Of a stretch of 64,000 nucleotides of DNA, positions 12,409-19,356 are shown one piece after another. Where the stretch lies: positions 1 through 64,000 of the forward strand of contig JAHJSA010000055.1 of the NCBI GenBank assembly GCA_018830645.1, given 5' to 3'. The stretch is from Actinomycetota bacterium (lineage in GTDB: Bacteria; Actinomycetota; Thermoleophilia; RBG-16-64-13). Numbering within the stretch: the stretch's first letter is position 1; each line of letters opens with the position of its first letter. The notes beneath the pieces were generated by a model. That model was not told the DNA's origin and made no database searches. It saw only the letters and a list, made by a program, of their open reading frames with translations. A program made the position numbers and the translations under genes.

Positions 12409-13785
12409 CTACGGGTAGCGCAGGTCGCCGATCGTCTTGTAGAACACCTGCCGAGCCAGGTCGCGGGCGCCGTGGAGGCGGTCGGCCGTCGTCACCACAC
12501 CCGGCACCCCCGGGTACTGGGGCACTGCGCGCCCAGCCAACTGTCTCAGCCAGCGCCGCCCACGGTAGATGAGGCGCTTCTGCACGTATGCTTCTTTCTG
12601 AGACGCCACCATGTCCCCGGGGCGCGCCTCCTCGAGGACGAGCGCGTCGGGGCTCAGTTCCTCCAGCATCGCGACGCCGGCCTCAGTGCGGGCGATGAGG
12701 TCGGACACTCCGGGAGTGCCGTCGAAGCGGTCGAGCCAGGCGTCGCCCACCGAGATGTCGGCCAGATCCGCCAGAGCGTCGGGGCAGAGACGACAGCGCG
12801 TGGGCACATAACCGAACATCAAGTCGTCGTAATAGTCGGGGTAGGGCAGCACCCGGGAATCGCCGGAATGGGTCTCCAACCGCATCACGCCCGGCCAGTC
12901 GGGGCCGCGGTAGGAGACCGAGGCGAGCTCGCGGGGGGAGAGGCCGGCACGTCGTGCCGCCACCGCGGCCAACTGCGGCAACCCCGTCCACCCGCAGAAG
13001 AGGCCTATGGCAAGCACGATCCTCTTGCGCAGCAGCGGATGGTGCCGCTGGGCGAGACGAAGGCCTTGGATGTGACAGGGGAGGCCGATCAGCGCGTAGC
13101 GACCGGGCTCCTCGATCACCCGACGCAACAGCACGTTGGTGGCCGCCACGTTGTACTTCGAGCCACGGCAGGCGGAGATCTCCTCAGCGGTCCGCGCGAT
13201 CACGGGCTCCGTCGCCAGAGCGTTCTCGGGATCCATGCGGCAGACCAGCGCCGCGTCGATGCGGCCGGCCGCCAGCGCCCCCTGCATGATGGCCGTCGCC
13301 ACACCGCCGGACGCTCCCTGATACCTCACGTCTGCGTCGGCGGCCCAGCCGAACGCGAGCCGGCGCCAGGGCCCGAGGAAGTCGGCGCTGGGGGCGCCTT
13401 CGTTGCGCTCGCGCCACCAGGCGTCATCGGTGAAGTCGAGACCGGGCCCGGGGCACACCTCGAGGCAAGTGCCGCACTCGTTGCAGGCGGCCGGCGAGAC
13501 GACCGGCTCGAGCCCCTCGCGCACGTCCCACCGCATGGTGATCGCGCCCTGATTGCAGAGCGCGGCACACGTGCCGCACTGCATGCACAGGCCCGACGAG
13601 TAGACGCCCGCGATGGTGGCACCGGAGGGGGCGGCGTCGAGGGCGCCCACGCTCGCGGCAGAGCCGGCGCTGGAGCCACCCGCGCTGGCGGCGGCGTCGG
13701 GCGTGGCGGCGGCGTCGGCCGTCGTTCCCTCGTCTTCGGTGTCGTCGCGCTCGGCCGTGGCGCCTCCCTCGTGGTCTGCTTCCAC
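12409..13785 (-). CDS. Coenzyme F420 hydrogenase/dehydrogenase beta-subunit family protein (FrhB-like)
   Basis: Two ferredoxin motifs (CMQCGTCAALC, CNECGTCLEVCPGPG), GASGGVATAIM, CRGSKYNV, GLPCHIQGLR, CRLCPDALADLADISVGDAW. Confidence 0.88.
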   Translation of the reverse strand: MEADHEGGATAERDDTEDEGTTADAAATPDAAASAGGSSAGSAASVGALDAAPSGATIAGVYSSGLCMQCGTCAALCNQGAITMRWDVREGLEPVVSPAACNECGTCLEVCPGPGLDFTDDAWWRERNEGAPSADFLGPWRRLAFGWAADADVRYQGASGGVATAIMQGALAAGRIDAALVCRMDPENALATEPVIARTAEEISACRGSKYNVAATNVLLRRVIEEPGRYALIGLPCHIQGLRLAQRHHPLLRKRIVLAIGLFCGWTGLPQLAAVAARRAGLSPRELASVSYRGPDWPGVMRLETHSGDSRVLPYPDYYDDLMFGYVPTRCRLCPDALADLADISVGDAWLDRFDGTPGVSDLIARTEAGVAMLEELSPDALVLEEARPGDMVASQKEAYVQKRLIYRGRRWLRQLAGRAVPQYPGVPGVVTTADRLHGARDLARQVFYKTIGDLRYP

Positions 13786-13887: not shown

Positions 13888-14388
13888 ATGGCCGAAGGGC
13901 TGGAACTGTCCGGGTCCGCGGCTCTGACGGGACTCACTCCCGCAGACGTGGGCGAACTCGAGCGTGTGGCCATCGTCCAGGAGTACGCGGCCGGAGACAC
14001 CATCTTCACCGAGGGAGAGCCCTCCTCCGGCATGTACATCATCGTTGAGGGCGACGTGTCCCTACACACCTCCCTCGGCGTCGAGCAGGTAGATGTGGGC
14101 AAGGCTGGGAAGGGCGACCTGATCGGCTGGTCCGGCCTGGTACCCCCGCATGTGTTCTCAGCAACGGCTGTCTCCGCGGGGGCAAGTACGATCGCCTTCA
14201 TCAAGACCGACGACCTGGTGCGCCTCAGCGAAGAGGACCAGTACCTGGGCCGGATGGTCATGCGCAACGTGGCCTCGGTCATCTCGGTGCGCCTGCGCGA
14301 ATCTCACAAGAGGACGGCCCACCTGGTGCAGCAGCTGCGCGACCAGGTGCCCTCCGGCAAGGGCCTGCGCTCCCGGCACCAGGGCTAG
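13888..14388 (+). CDS. Cyclic-nucleotide-binding-domain protein without HTH
   Basis: 166 aa; EYAAGDTIFTEGEPSSGMYIIVEGDVSL cNMP fold; no winged-helix region after the dimerisation helix. Confidence 0.8.
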   Translation: MAEGLELSGSAALTGLTPADVGELERVAIVQEYAAGDTIFTEGEPSSGMYIIVEGDVSLHTSLGVEQVDVGKAGKGDLIGWSGLVPPHVFSATAVSAGASTIAFIKTDDLVRLSEEDQYLGRMVMRNVASVISVRLRESHKRTAHLVQQLRDQVPSGKGLRSRHQG

Positions 14389-14423
14389 TCTGTATCACGG
14401 TTCGTCGCCGCCGCGAACGCCGG

Positions 14424-14534
14424 TGGGAACGGGCCGCCTGTGGGTGAGCCGAATGGAGAGGGGGCCGGATCGCCGGGGAGACCGGTGGCCGGCCCCAACA
14501 TCGAGGCGCCGGTGACGCACCGGTCGCGATGGAG
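14424..14534 (+). ncRNA. Candidate structured RNA/leader element, copy A
   Basis: ~115-bp direct repeat of 14638-14757; nested hairpin GGGGCCGG-ATC-GCCGG-GGAGA-CCGGT-GG-CCGGCCCC, then hairpin CCGGTG-ACG-CACCGG. Confidence 0.5.
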
Positions 14535-14540
14535 TATCAT

Positions 14541-14566
14541 CGGTAGGCACGTACGGTAGGCACGTA
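14541..14566. repeat. 13-bp perfect tandem duplication CGGTAGGCACGTA x2
   Basis: 14541-14553 and 14554-14566 identical. Confidence 0.85.
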
Positions 14567-14611
14567 GCGACCTGCCCAAGAGCTAAGGTCAGGAACCGTG
14601 TCCGCCGATAT

Positions 14612-14625
14612 GTGAATAGGTTCAC
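14612..14625. promoter_or_regulatory. CRP/FNR-type palindrome GTGAA-N4-TTCAC
   Basis: Perfect 5-bp half sites; in context TGTGAATAGGTTCACG matches the TGTGA-N6-TCAC(A) CRP layout; lies just upstream of leader copy B. Confidence 0.5.
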
Positions 14626-14637
14626 GAAGACGGCTCG

Positions 14638-14757
14638 TGGGGAACGGGTCCGCCTGTGGGTGAGCTGAACAGAGAGAGAGGGGGCCGGATCACCGGGGAG
14701 ACCGGTGGCTGGCCTCAACATCGAGGCGCCGGTGACGCACCGGCCGCGGAGGAGTGA
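14638..14757 (+). ncRNA. Candidate structured RNA/leader element, copy B (hydrogenase operon 5' leader)
   Basis: Second copy of the repeat; hairpins conserved with wobble/compatible changes; ends in GGAGGAG Shine-Dalgarno immediately before ATG 14764. Confidence 0.55.
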
Positions 14758-14763
14758 GCGCCA

Positions 14764-15801
14764 ATGATCGACCGCGTCGTGGCCAAGGCGGACCTCATCA
14801 GGTCCATCGACAGCCTGGCCGACAAGCGAACCGTGGCCGCGCCCGTGGCGAACGGTCCGCAGTTCAGCTTCAGGACCATCACTGCGGCCGAGGAGATCGC
14901 GGAGGGCTACCTCCCCACGGCCCTACCTCCGAACAAGTATCTCCTGCCACCGCGCGAGACGCTGCTTCGGTTCGCCTGGCATGAGGAACTCACAGTGGAC
15001 CCCGTGATCGAGGCGACCGACACGATTGCCTTCGGCGTCCGACCCTGCGACCTCCACGCTCTGGAGCTACTCGACCGCATCTTCGTCGACGACAAGCATG
15101 ACGGGCACTACCGCGCCCGCCGCGAGCGGATGCTTCTCGTGGGAGTCGAGTGCCTGGAACCCTGTGACGACCACTGCTTCTGCGAGAGCATGGGCACTCT
15201 CCGCGCGGAGAGTGGCTTCGACGTGCTCCTCACCGACCTCGAAGACACCTACTACGTACGGGTGGGCTCGCCCGAAGGCAAGGAGTTCATCCTCGGCATC
15301 GATGGAGTGCGTGAGGCCGCCTACGAAGACCGCACTCTGCTTCGCAAGGCCCACGAGCGGCGCGACGCCGCCTTCACCCCCCGACTCGACGTGACGTTTG
15401 AGCAGCTTCCCGGCTTGCTGGCGGAGAGCTCGGATTCGCTCCTGTGGGACGTGCTCGGCGAGAAATGCCTCTCCTGCGGAGCCTGCACCAACGTGTGCCC
15501 CACCTGCTACTGCTTCGACGTGCGCGACGACGTGAACCTCGACATGAAGAGTGGCGAGCGCTTCCGAACGTGGGACAGCTGCCAGCTCGAGGAGTTCGCC
15601 ATGGTGGGCACCGGCGAGAGCTTCCGCCAACCCCGAGAGATGCGGGTGAAGCACCGCTTCAACCGGAAGGGCCGCTACATATTCGAGCGCTACGGGCTGC
15701 ACGGCTGTGTCGGCTGCGGCCGCTGTGCGAGGAGCTGTATCGTGGATATCGACCCGATCGAGGTGTTCAATCAGCTCAAGGGCCAACCGGTGGAAAGGTA
15801 G
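14764..15801 (+). CDS. hydB: Sulfhydrogenase beta-subunit-like 4Fe-4S protein (HydB/AsrA-like)
   Basis: FGVRPCDLHALELLDRIF, GEKCLSCGACTNVCPTCYCFDV, HGCVGCGRCARSCIVDID. Confidence 0.85.
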   Translation: MIDRVVAKADLIRSIDSLADKRTVAAPVANGPQFSFRTITAAEEIAEGYLPTALPPNKYLLPPRETLLRFAWHEELTVDPVIEATDTIAFGVRPCDLHALELLDRIFVDDKHDGHYRARRERMLLVGVECLEPCDDHCFCESMGTLRAESGFDVLLTDLEDTYYVRVGSPEGKEFILGIDGVREAAYEDRTLLRKAHERRDAAFTPRLDVTFEQLPGLLAESSDSLLWDVLGEKCLSCGACTNVCPTCYCFDVRDDVNLDMKSGERFRTWDSCQLEEFAMVGTGESFRQPREMRVKHRFNRKGRYIFERYGLHGCVGCGRCARSCIVDIDPIEVFNQLKGQPVER

Positions 15802-15804
15802 GGG

Positions 15805-16662
15805 ATGGTGAGCACTCACACGACTCCACTTGGCGCGCTGAAGCCGTCGCCGTTCCTGCCCGACATGGCCGAGATCGTCCGCAAGGAGCGGCTGAACCCC
15901 ACCGAGACCCTCTATGTGCTGCGGCTCACGGGAGGGGCCGAACTCGGACACGCTCCGGGACAGTTCGTGGAGGTGAGCGTCTTCGGAGTGGGAGAGGCGC
16001 CCCTCTCTATCTCGTCGTCACCCACCAGAGGTGACACCTTCGAACTCTGCATCCGCAGGGTGGGGGATGTCACAACCGCGATGGAACGACTCGGAATCGG
16101 GGCCAAGGTCGGTATCCGCGGGCCGTTGGGGCGGGGGTTCCCGCTCGAGGTCATGCGCGACCGCGACGTGCTGATCATCGCAGGCGGCCTGGGCATCGTC
16201 CCGCTCCGCAGCCTGATAGGCACCTTGATCGACGAACGCTCCGATTTTGCCGACGTGACCATCCTGTACGGGTGCAAGAGCCCCGCCGATATGTTGTTCA
16301 AGGATGAGGTCGAGGCCTGGGGAGCCCGCAGTGACATCGACTTCCGAGTGACCATGGACATCGCCGACCCGTCGTGGCAAGGCAACGTGGGCCCCGTCAC
16401 CACCCTGTTCCGACGGCTCGCCGTGAACCCCAAGACCACGGTGCCCGTCATGGTGGGGCCGCCGGTGATGTTCAAGCACGTGGTGAAGCAGGTGCTCGCG
16501 GTGGGCATCCCCGAGGATCGGATCATCCTCTCGCTCGAACGACGCATGAAGTGTGGCATCGGCGAGTGCGGGCACTGCCAGATCAACGGCGTGTACGTGT
16601 GCGAGGACGGCCCCGTGTTCACGTACGCCGAGCTGAAGCGGCTCGAGGAGGCGATGCTCTGA
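15805..16662 (+). CDS. hydG: Sulfhydrogenase gamma-subunit-like FAD/NAD(P)-binding protein
   Basis: PGQFVEVSVFGVGEAPLSISSSPT, IIAGGLGIVPLRSLI, MKCGIGECGHCQINGVYVCEDGPVF. Confidence 0.88.
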   Translation: MVSTHTTPLGALKPSPFLPDMAEIVRKERLNPTETLYVLRLTGGAELGHAPGQFVEVSVFGVGEAPLSISSSPTRGDTFELCIRRVGDVTTAMERLGIGAKVGIRGPLGRGFPLEVMRDRDVLIIAGGLGIVPLRSLIGTLIDERSDFADVTILYGCKSPADMLFKDEVEAWGARSDIDFRVTMDIADPSWQGNVGPVTTLFRRLAVNPKTTVPVMVGPPVMFKHVVKQVLAVGIPEDRIILSLERRMKCGIGECGHCQINGVYVCEDGPVFTYAELKRLEEAML

Positions 16663-17450
16663 TGACCGAACCCATCCGCAGTCCCGAACGCCCCCGGGTG
16701 GCGCTCTTCGAGCTCGCCTCCTGCGCGGGGTGCCAGCTCCAGATCCTCAACTGTGAGGACGAGCTGGTCGACCTGCTTCAGCTCGTGGAGTTCGTCTACT
16801 TCAAGGAAGCGATGACAGAGACATCCGACCACTACGACCTCGCGCTAATCGAAGGCTCGGTGACCCGCGAGTCTGATGAGGAGAAGCTCCGCCACATTCG
16901 CGAGAAGGCCGCCCTGGTGGTGACGCTGGGCTCCTGCGCCTACCCGGTGGGAGTCCCCGGGCTCAAGAACGCGCACGACCCGGATGAGGTGGGGTCGTTG
17001 GTCTACGGTGAAGACGCGGGCTTCTTCCCCACGATCGAAGCCAAACCGGTGGACGCCGTGATCCCCGTGGACCTGCACATCCTCGGCTGCCCGATCCACA
17101 AGGACGACTTCATGCGGGTGCTGACAGCGCTCCTGATCGGGAAGCACCCGCCCGTGCCGACTCACGCCGTGTGCGTTGAGTGCCGCCTGAAGGAGAACGT
17201 CTGCGCGTTCGACCGCGGCCTCGTCTGCCTGGGGCCGATCACCCGCGCCGGCTGCGGAGCACTCTGCCCGAGCTACGGGAGCCGCTGCTTCGGCTGCCGC
17301 GGTCTCTGCGACGACCCCAACGTTGCGTCCATGGAAGTGCTGCTGGAAGAGAAGGGAAAGACCGCGGAGGAGATCATGGCCGAGTACGGCCTCTACAACG
17401 GCTATTATGCCCGCCGCGACGGCGGCTTGAAAGCGAAGGTGGCTCGATGA
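16662..17450 (+). CDS. hydD: [NiFe] hydrogenase small (delta) subunit, group 3-like
   Basis: ASCAGCQLQILNCEDELVDL, EGSVTRESDEEKLRHIREKAALVVTLGSCAYPVGVPGLKN, LGCPIHKDDF. Confidence 0.88.
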   Translation: MTEPIRSPERPRVALFELASCAGCQLQILNCEDELVDLLQLVEFVYFKEAMTETSDHYDLALIEGSVTRESDEEKLRHIREKAALVVTLGSCAYPVGVPGLKNAHDPDEVGSLVYGEDAGFFPTIEAKPVDAVIPVDLHILGCPIHKDDFMRVLTALLIGKHPPVPTHAVCVECRLKENVCAFDRGLVCLGPITRAGCGALCPSYGSRCFGCRGLCDDPNVASMEVLLEEKGKTAEEIMAEYGLYNGYYARRDGGLKAKVAR

Positions 17451-18904
17451 CCGGCAACGGCGGCAGCAACGGCGGTGCGGGCGGGGCACGGACCGTCGAG
17501 GTGAACGTGGACTACGTGTCCCGCGTAGAGGGTCACGGCAACATCGTGGTGGTGGCTGAGAACGACCTGCCCACAGAGGTGCGTTTCGAGGTGACCGAGC
17601 CGCCCCGCTTCTTCGAGGCGATGCTGCGTGGTCGCCCCTACGACCAGGCGCCGCTCATCACCAGCCGTATCTGCGGAATCTGCTCCAACGGACACGTGCT
17701 GGCCTCAATCACCGCCATGGAGGCCACGCTGGGAATCACGCCCACCCGGCAGACCAAGCTTCTGCGTCGCCTGCTCATGCACGGCGAGACCATCCAGAGC
17801 CACGTGCTGCACGCGTACTTCCTGGTGGCCCCCGACTTCTTCGACGTAGGAAGTGTGGTGCCCCTGGCGGGCACTCACCCCGAGGTCGTGAAACGTGCCC
17901 TGCGCCTGAAGAAGCTCGGCAACGACTTGTGCGAGGTCGTCGGCGGTCGCGCCGTGCACCAGGTGGCTGCGGTGGTGGGTGGGTTCACCCACCTGCCGAC
18001 GCCTGAGGCCCTCACCGCGGTCCGCACACGACTGGTGGAGGCGGGGGGCGACCTCCAAGAGACCGTGACCCTGTTCGCGAGCCTGGACATGCCGGCCTTC
18101 AGCCGGCCCACCGAATACCTCTCCCTCACGTACGGGGAGGCCGGCGGAGACGAAGCCGGAGGAGGAGAAGCCTACGCCTTCTTCGGCGACCACATCCTCT
18201 CGTCGGAGGGCGGCACGATCCCGGTGAGCGACTACCGCGACAAGGTGCGGGAACGCGTCGTGGCCCACTCCTCGGCCAAGCACTGCGCTCCGGGCGATGG
18301 AACTGCGACCGACACCTTCATGGTAGGCGCCTTGGCCCGCCTCAACAATGGCTTCGACCGGCTGAGCGACGGCGCCAAGGCGGCTGCGGCCGACCTCGGG
18401 TTCCAACCGACCTGCACCAACACGTTCATGAACACGGTGGCCCAGCTCATCGAGACCGTGCACTGCGTGGAAGACTCCGTCATGATCATCGACCGATTGC
18501 TCGACGAGGGCCTGAAGGCGGAACCTCCGGAGGTGGAGATCCGCGCAGGACGCGGCGCCGGAGCTGTGGAGGTGCCTCGCGGCACGTTGTACCACGAGTA
18601 TGCGGTGGACGACGCCGGGCTGATCGTCGAGGCCAACCTGATCATCCCCACCGGCCAGAACCTGGCGAATCTGGAGCAGGACATGTGGGCCTTGGCACCG
18701 CAGGTGCTCCCCCAAGGCAAGGAGAAGGCTCAGAAGGCCATGGAGATGCTCGTGCGGGCCTACGATCCCTGTATCTCCTGCTCCACCCACGTGATCTACT
18801 TGGATGGGGAGGGGAACGAGAGCGCCGGTGACGATGCCGGGCATTCACACCGAGCAGACCACCAAGGCACGGGGGCCTCCGGGCCGGAGGAGGTGACGGC
18901 ATGA
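17447..18904 (+). CDS. hydA: [NiFe] hydrogenase large (alpha) subunit, group 3b-like
   Basis: L1 motif RICGICSNGH and L2 motif DPCISCSTH; RVEGHGNIVV; 4-bp overlap with the small subunit. Confidence 0.9.
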   Translation: MTGNGGSNGGAGGARTVEVNVDYVSRVEGHGNIVVVAENDLPTEVRFEVTEPPRFFEAMLRGRPYDQAPLITSRICGICSNGHVLASITAMEATLGITPTRQTKLLRRLLMHGETIQSHVLHAYFLVAPDFFDVGSVVPLAGTHPEVVKRALRLKKLGNDLCEVVGGRAVHQVAAVVGGFTHLPTPEALTAVRTRLVEAGGDLQETVTLFASLDMPAFSRPTEYLSLTYGEAGGDEAGGGEAYAFFGDHILSSEGGTIPVSDYRDKVRERVVAHSSAKHCAPGDGTATDTFMVGALARLNNGFDRLSDGAKAAAADLGFQPTCTNTFMNTVAQLIETVHCVEDSVMIIDRLLDEGLKAEPPEVEIRAGRGAGAVEVPRGTLYHEYAVDDAGLIVEANLIIPTGQNLANLEQDMWALAPQVLPQGKEKAQKAMEMLVRAYDPCISCSTHVIYLDGEGNESAGDDAGHSHRADHQGTGASGPEEVTA

Positions 18905-19356
18905 CCGTCGATCGCGCGTTGCTCAAGCGCAACGAACTCTTCACCACCCTTGATGACGGCGAAGCGGCCATGCTGGCCAAGAAGGCGGTGAGCAGGACGT
19001 ACCTGGCGGGAGAAGAGATCTTCCAGGAGAACGAGGAGGCCTATGCCATCTGTGTGCTCCTGGAAGGGCGCGTGGGCCTGATGATGGATGTGGGCAACGG
19101 TAGGCGCCTTACCGTGACCACGGTCGAACCGGGCGAGATCTTCGCCTGGTCGGGACTCGTGGCGCCGTATCAATTCACCTCGACGGCCCGCGCCGTGGAG
19201 GACTGCACCATGGCGGCTTTCAAGTCGGAAGACCTCCGGCGCATGTTCGACGAGAACCCCCGCCTGGGCTACCAGGTGATGCGCCAGATCTCGTTCCTGA
19301 TCGCCCAGCGTCTGCGCGACACCCACCTGCAGCTGCTGGGGCTGTTCGGCTCGTAG
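18901..19356 (+). CDS. Cyclic-nucleotide-binding-domain protein without HTH
   Basis: 151 aa; TYLAGEEIFQENEEAYAICVLLEGRVGLMM...GEIFAWSGLVAPYQFTSTARA; paralog of 13888..14388. Confidence 0.8.
   Translation: MTVDRALLKRNELFTTLDDGEAAMLAKKAVSRTYLAGEEIFQENEEAYAICVLLEGRVGLMMDVGNGRRLTVTTVEPGEIFAWSGLVAPYQFTSTARAVEDCTMAAFKSEDLRRMFDENPRLGYQVMRQISFLIAQRLRDTHLQLLGLFGS

Follow-up and report, generated by a model that had tools for sequence, protein, structure and literature searches.

The hydrogenase operon and its upstream region

The window (the whole stretch of 64,000 nucleotides analyzed here) carries on its + strand a four-gene [NiFe] hydrogenase operon, preceded by a leader sequence that is present twice with a palindrome in between. 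The features of this region are the following:

13888 to 14388, + strand: cNMP-binding-type domain protein, the gene before the leader (PF00027 only; DNA-binding domain not found)
14424 to 14535, + strand: copy A, duplicated leader, with hairpin 1 at 14461-14496 and hairpin 2 at about 14506-14528 (from repeat, alignment and fold)
14512 to 14540, + strand: sigma-70-like promoter match GTGACG-17-TATCAT, inside and just past the end of copy A (uncertain, consensus match only)
14610 to 14627, no strand given: predicted Rex-type operator ATGTGAATAGGTTCACGA between copies A and B, with 2 mismatches to TTGTGAA-N4-TTCACAA
14639 to 14755, + strand: copy B, leader directly 5' of hydB, with hairpin 1 at 14681-14716 and hairpin 2 at about 14726-14748 (from repeat, alignment, fold and a single homologue at the same position in the same-genus genome)
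14764 to 15801, + strand: hydB, [NiFe] hydrogenase/sulfhydrogenase beta subunit, 4Fe-4S (NF040829/NF040833, E 5e-69/3e-66, below the equivalog cut-off; Pfam Fer4_22)
15805 to 16662, + strand: hydG-like gamma subunit, FAD/NAD(P)-binding (NF040835, NF006220)
16665 to 17450, + strand: hydD-like delta (small) subunit (NF040836, PF01058)
17447 to 18904, + strand: hydA-like alpha (large, Ni-binding) subunit (NF040832, PF00374)
18901 to 19356, + strand: second cNMP-binding-domain protein at the operon end (PF00027 only; DNA-binding domain not found)

A sequence-only reading of this DNA had placed a [NiFe] hydrogenase operon downstream of the repeat, which is borne out by the gene order hydB-hydG-hydD-hydA. 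All four subunits show strong matches to models of NADPH-/NAD(P)-dependent hydrogenases/sulfhydrogenases, yet score below the equivalog cut-offs, so that the subgroup name is a best guess. The hydrogenase genes are flanked by the two single-domain cNMP-binding proteins, and another member of the family likewise has a related gene before hydB. Divergent from the first cNMP gene lies a minus-strand gene for an FrhB/FdhB-like (F420-type beta subunit) iron-sulfur protein (12409-13785), and this neighborhood is conserved in the sister species introduced below.

A Rex-type palindrome before hydB

The repressor Rex binds its operator at low NADH/NAD+ and releases it at high NADH. The consensus of this NADH-sensing repressor, TTGTGAA-N4-TTCACAA (PMC6391272, PMC5355995), is found upstream of hydB in all seven orthologues of the family, with 0, 0, 1, 2, 2, 2 and 3 mismatches and a P of at most 0.0065 by shuffling for each of them. 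In the window, this predicted operator had been missed by the sequence-only reading, and it is the regulatory feature that every orthologous operon in the family has in common. The surrounding block shows no difference from the sister species, with divergence setting in further out. The same outer-base variants as here (ATGTGAAC... and ...TTCACGA) also occur in sites footprinted with Rex of Streptomyces avermitilis (PMC5355995), and in Caldicellulosiruptor the targets of Rex include NiFe hydrogenase genes (PMC6391272).

The genomic distribution of the palindrome points in the same direction. Sites with at most two mismatches number four in the 3.87-Mb genome, located before hydB, before rex itself, before an acetate uptake transporter and before a GlcD-like dehydrogenase, a set that looks like a Rex regulon as predicted from these positions. 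Across 18 genomes of the family only two perfect sites occur, both before hydB, and rex is present in 16 of the 18, including all seven that have the hydB orthologue. The genome under study has two genes named Rex by NCBIfam; the second paralogue adjoins glutamate-1-semialdehyde aminotransferase-like and UbiD-like genes (named from reading their translations). Some non-orthologous paralogues also have sites with two to three mismatches nearby. Since the palindrome resembles a CRP/FNR site as well (TGTGA-N6-TCACG), this identity was considered in place of Rex. It is the weaker one: all sites have the form TGTGAA...TTCAC or a near form, and the genome holds no CRP-type helix-turn-helix above the Pfam cut-off, three proteins giving weak matches below it.

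Duplication, folding and conservation of the leader

A segment of about 115 bp had been described as occurring twice before hydB. This is confirmed by a gapped local alignment of the two copies (112 versus 117 nt) with a score of 86, where 1000 Markov shuffles reached 24 at most. The duplication as such stood, whereas the bounds of copy B had been given as 14638-14757 and the spacing as about 214; the copies start 215-220 nt apart. In the ungapped 80-nt core (14456-14535 and 14676-14755) the copies are 93% identical, and the 6 substitutions rule out an assembly echo as source of the second copy. No third copy is present in the 3.87-Mb genome, where the next match has an E of 0.04 over 33 bp. 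A dispersed repeat or mobile element was likewise rejected, given only two copies in the genome and no plasmid match. The duplicated unit begins 12 nt past the operator and ends just before the start codon; because it excludes both, copy A has neither. The Shine-Dalgarno sequence (SD) GGAGGAG of copy B, which had been read as ending the copy directly before the hydB ATG, is indeed there at 14748-14754, but copy B itself ends 8 nt before that ATG. In copy A no start codon follows and the SD is changed to GATGGAG. Just past copy A, at 14541-14566, lies a perfect 13-bp tandem repeat (CGGTAGGCACGTA twice) that is absent from the sister species.

Among 99 related genomes searched at the DNA level, one strong leader homologue was found, 80% identical over 87 bp, in the sole genome of the same genus (contig JAGXFW010000004.1, an Actinomycetes MAG; L009/L031). 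In this sister species the leader is present as a single copy in the position of copy B, directly between the palindrome and hydB. The sister leader differs from copies A and B more than these differ from one another, which, together with the single copy there, points to a recent duplication. As inferred from this order of similarity, the leader would have been duplicated upstream in the present species after its split from the sister species. When the latter serves as outgroup, three stem changes come out as derived in copy B, and copy A has kept the older stem while its SD was lost.

Copy B and the sister leader are identical at 72 of 88 positions (82%), compared to 78 of 146 fourfold sites of hydB (53%; Fisher p 1e-5). 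The leader is therefore under constraint, and by this comparison it is probably functional. The proposal of a duplicated structured leader is thus supported, as the single relative carrying the leader conserves it beyond the neutral level. The same data bear on whether the duplication is neutral and transient, with conservation of the leader confined to the surroundings of the SD. Copy A has indeed lost SD and start codon and is carried by one species only, yet its hairpin stems are kept and conservation of the leader reaches 70 nt upstream of the SD, so that we regard neutrality as very improbable.

Beyond the genus no relatives were recognized. A covariance model built from the three sequences was run against 299 class genomes. 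Its own three members scored 107, 106 and 91 bits, and nothing else exceeded 28 bits; the search across the class proposed in the sequence-only reading thus places true relatives in one other species only, of the same genus. The weak matches were taken as chance in GC-rich DNA rather than as a wider RNA family; the ten best were retrieved, one of which could not be centred, and those inspected sit inside long open frames. Weak BLASTN matches (19-45 bp) were treated as chance in the same way, without one-by-one inspection. The five more distant hydB orthologues in the family, at 64-72% protein identity, lack the leader. Searching Rfam 15 gave no match in the window at the gathering threshold and, with the cut-off relaxed to E 10, none within 14380-14800 either, which agrees with the earlier statement that no known riboswitch class is recognizable; in a literature search, no riboswitch or leader RNA was found reported with group 3b hydrogenases. 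In the sister species (L009:1500-1594, minus strand) the leader is traversed by an ATG frame of 31 codons whose end overlaps the start of hydB (ATGA). A leader peptide was rejected, as this frame is not kept in copy A or B and nearly all aligned codon changes, compared by eye, are non-synonymous.

Both copies had been said to fold into hairpins as + strand RNA, and the fold energies agree with this. The 80-nt cores fold at -50.9 kcal/mol for copy A (z -4.74) and -45.0 kcal/mol for copy B (z -3.99), with z-scores taken against dinucleotide shuffles, 0 of 200 of which were as good for either copy; the sister leader reaches z -2.96. Folds of the minus strand are weaker (z -2.96, -1.56 and -1.76 for A, B and the sister species, respectively). 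Among 3196 stretches of 80 nt on the + strand of the window, 0.03% fold as well as copy A and 0.6% as well as copy B. The excess is smaller over longer stretches, e.g., z -1.37 for 128 nt of copy B. Hairpin 1 is built of two stems stacked on each other, 15 bp in all.

At five pairs the sequences differ by one transition, and in every case + strand pairing is retained, for which we estimate a chance of about 1 in 32 if each change had even odds of doing so. Four such substitutions between the copies had been listed in the sequence-only reading: the G.U/A-U change and the two G-C/G.U changes hold, whereas the fourth, at the base of hairpin 2, depends on the register, as the position becomes a bulge when GCG/CGC forms the basal helix. 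Between copy B and the sister species, stem positions are 77% conserved versus 86% for unpaired positions, and three stem pairs are broken in the sister species. Pairs with a two-sided, pairing-keeping change number zero, in three sequences that are too few to exclude covariation.

These stem changes also bear on a reading at the level of DNA, in which a second transcription factor would recognize the CACCGG/CCGGTG dyads as double-stranded sites; copy A would then supply more of them, and the potential to form hairpins would be incidental. CCGGTG or CACCGG occurs 8 times in the region versus 0.8 expected, making it the densest place in the window, and copy A is positioned where upstream DNA sites would act. 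On the other hand, the density is partly a product of the hairpins and the duplication themselves, the sister species has most half-sites of the dyads degraded, and all five stem changes are transitions, which G.U pairing in + strand RNA accommodates. We hold this reading to be unlikely.

The sequence-only reading had gone further in suggesting a tandem riboswitch or attenuator, in which a ligand or protein would bind the hairpin pair and switch hydB transcription or translation, two copies giving a steeper or a two-input response. Several features would suit such a device: the structure on the + strand, the conservation above neutral, the adjacent SD and the single-stranded ACATCGAGGCG between the hairpins, which is invariant in all three leader copies. 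In addition, the arms CACCGG/CCGGTG recur in the leader and could allow hairpins 1 and 2 to exchange partners. The leader is nevertheless limited to two species of one genus and absent from orthologous operons; the single copy of the sister species implies that a tandem is not needed, and copy A lies upstream of the operator. Nor is an actuator visible. The leader region holds 0 terminator-like sites and no terminator-like tail, GC-rich hosts possibly using other signals. Sequestration of the SD was rejected: across four transcript models its mean probability of being unpaired is 0.52-0.74, so that predicted folds leave it mostly free, without clear occlusion. No compensatory pair was seen either, and we consider a switch of this kind improbable. 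The earlier observation is sound, its interpretation overreaching.

Transcription start, control model and likeness to known systems

The promoter match GTGACG-17-TATCAT is the only sigma-70-like match in the region (shuffle mean 0.0). It lies 70 bp upstream of the operator and is absent in relatives. In three relatives a -10-like box lies about 5-8 bp before the operator; no clear one is found beside the window operator, and the window does not retain GATAGT, the -10-like sequence of the sister species. Going by the promoter positions of the relatives, copy A probably lies upstream not only of the operator but also of the hydB transcript start. Alternatively, the end of copy A (TATCAT, 14535-14540) may by now be the main promoter, the duplication having given a new upstream start with Rex as a downstream roadblock. 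The uniqueness of the match and the loss of GATAGT in the window would fit this arrangement, and a Rex roadblock position downstream of the start is known for wblE (PMC5355995). Yet the match is one to consensus only (9/12), it is not found in relatives, and actinobacterial promoters are poorly described by such a consensus, so that we give this start a low probability.

The organization that we favor, and consider reasonably probable, is a Rex-type promoter of the hydBGDA [NiFe] hydrogenase followed by an mRNA leader (copy B) with a genus-specific hairpin pair, copy A being a recent upstream duplicate. Rex would repress hydBGDA by binding 14610-14627 at low NADH/NAD+ and would release it at high NADH. 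The hydB mRNA would then start with the copy B leader, presenting two hairpins just before the ribosome-binding site, and copy B would most likely act as a cis-acting 5' UTR element that stabilizes the mRNA or tunes hydB translation. Copy A, between the cNMP gene and the operator, would not be part of the hydB mRNA except by read-through from the cNMP gene or by initiation further upstream; it may thus be present only in read-through transcripts, act as DNA or be inert. A bolder version, in which a genus-specific cis-acting RNA responds to a hydrogenase-related signal as a second layer of control beyond Rex and its duplication around the operator makes a two-element switch, seems to us highly unlikely. 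Should the leader prove to switch, hydrogen metabolism would gain a rare case of a cis-acting RNA, a reading for which the evidence does not call.

Control of hydrogenases by Rex is already known elsewhere. Rex operators precede hydrogenase operons such as those of the NiFe and FeFe hydrogenases of Caldicellulosiruptor bescii (PMC6391272), with the same palindrome upstream of the first hydrogenase gene. The likeness extends to a rex autoregulatory site and to sites before acetate and lactate/glycolate-type redox genes. In contrast to C. bescii (PMC6391272), the hydrogenase here is of the cytoplasmic hydBGDA type and belongs to an uncultured actinobacterial lineage, the operator is predicted from sequence, and in one genus a conserved hairpin leader follows it. 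Considered by sequence, the hydrogenase unit probably adds a new member to the Rex regulon, one that carries a structured leader confined to the genus. The [NiFe] hydrogenases of this little-studied actinobacterial family would accordingly be under probable Rex (NADH/NAD+) control, which provides a prediction for uncultured hydrogen metabolism.

The leader itself shares with the riboswitch and leader families of Rfam a structured RNA upstream of a metabolic operon, but differs by the lack of a match, the narrow distribution and the absence of observed covariation. Hairpins in the 5' UTR that stabilize the mRNA or tune its translation exist, and the present leader resembles these in having a stable hairpin just past the expected transcript start and, in predicted folds, an open SD. 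It is recorded here as a conserved, duplicated leader hairpin that as yet has no family.
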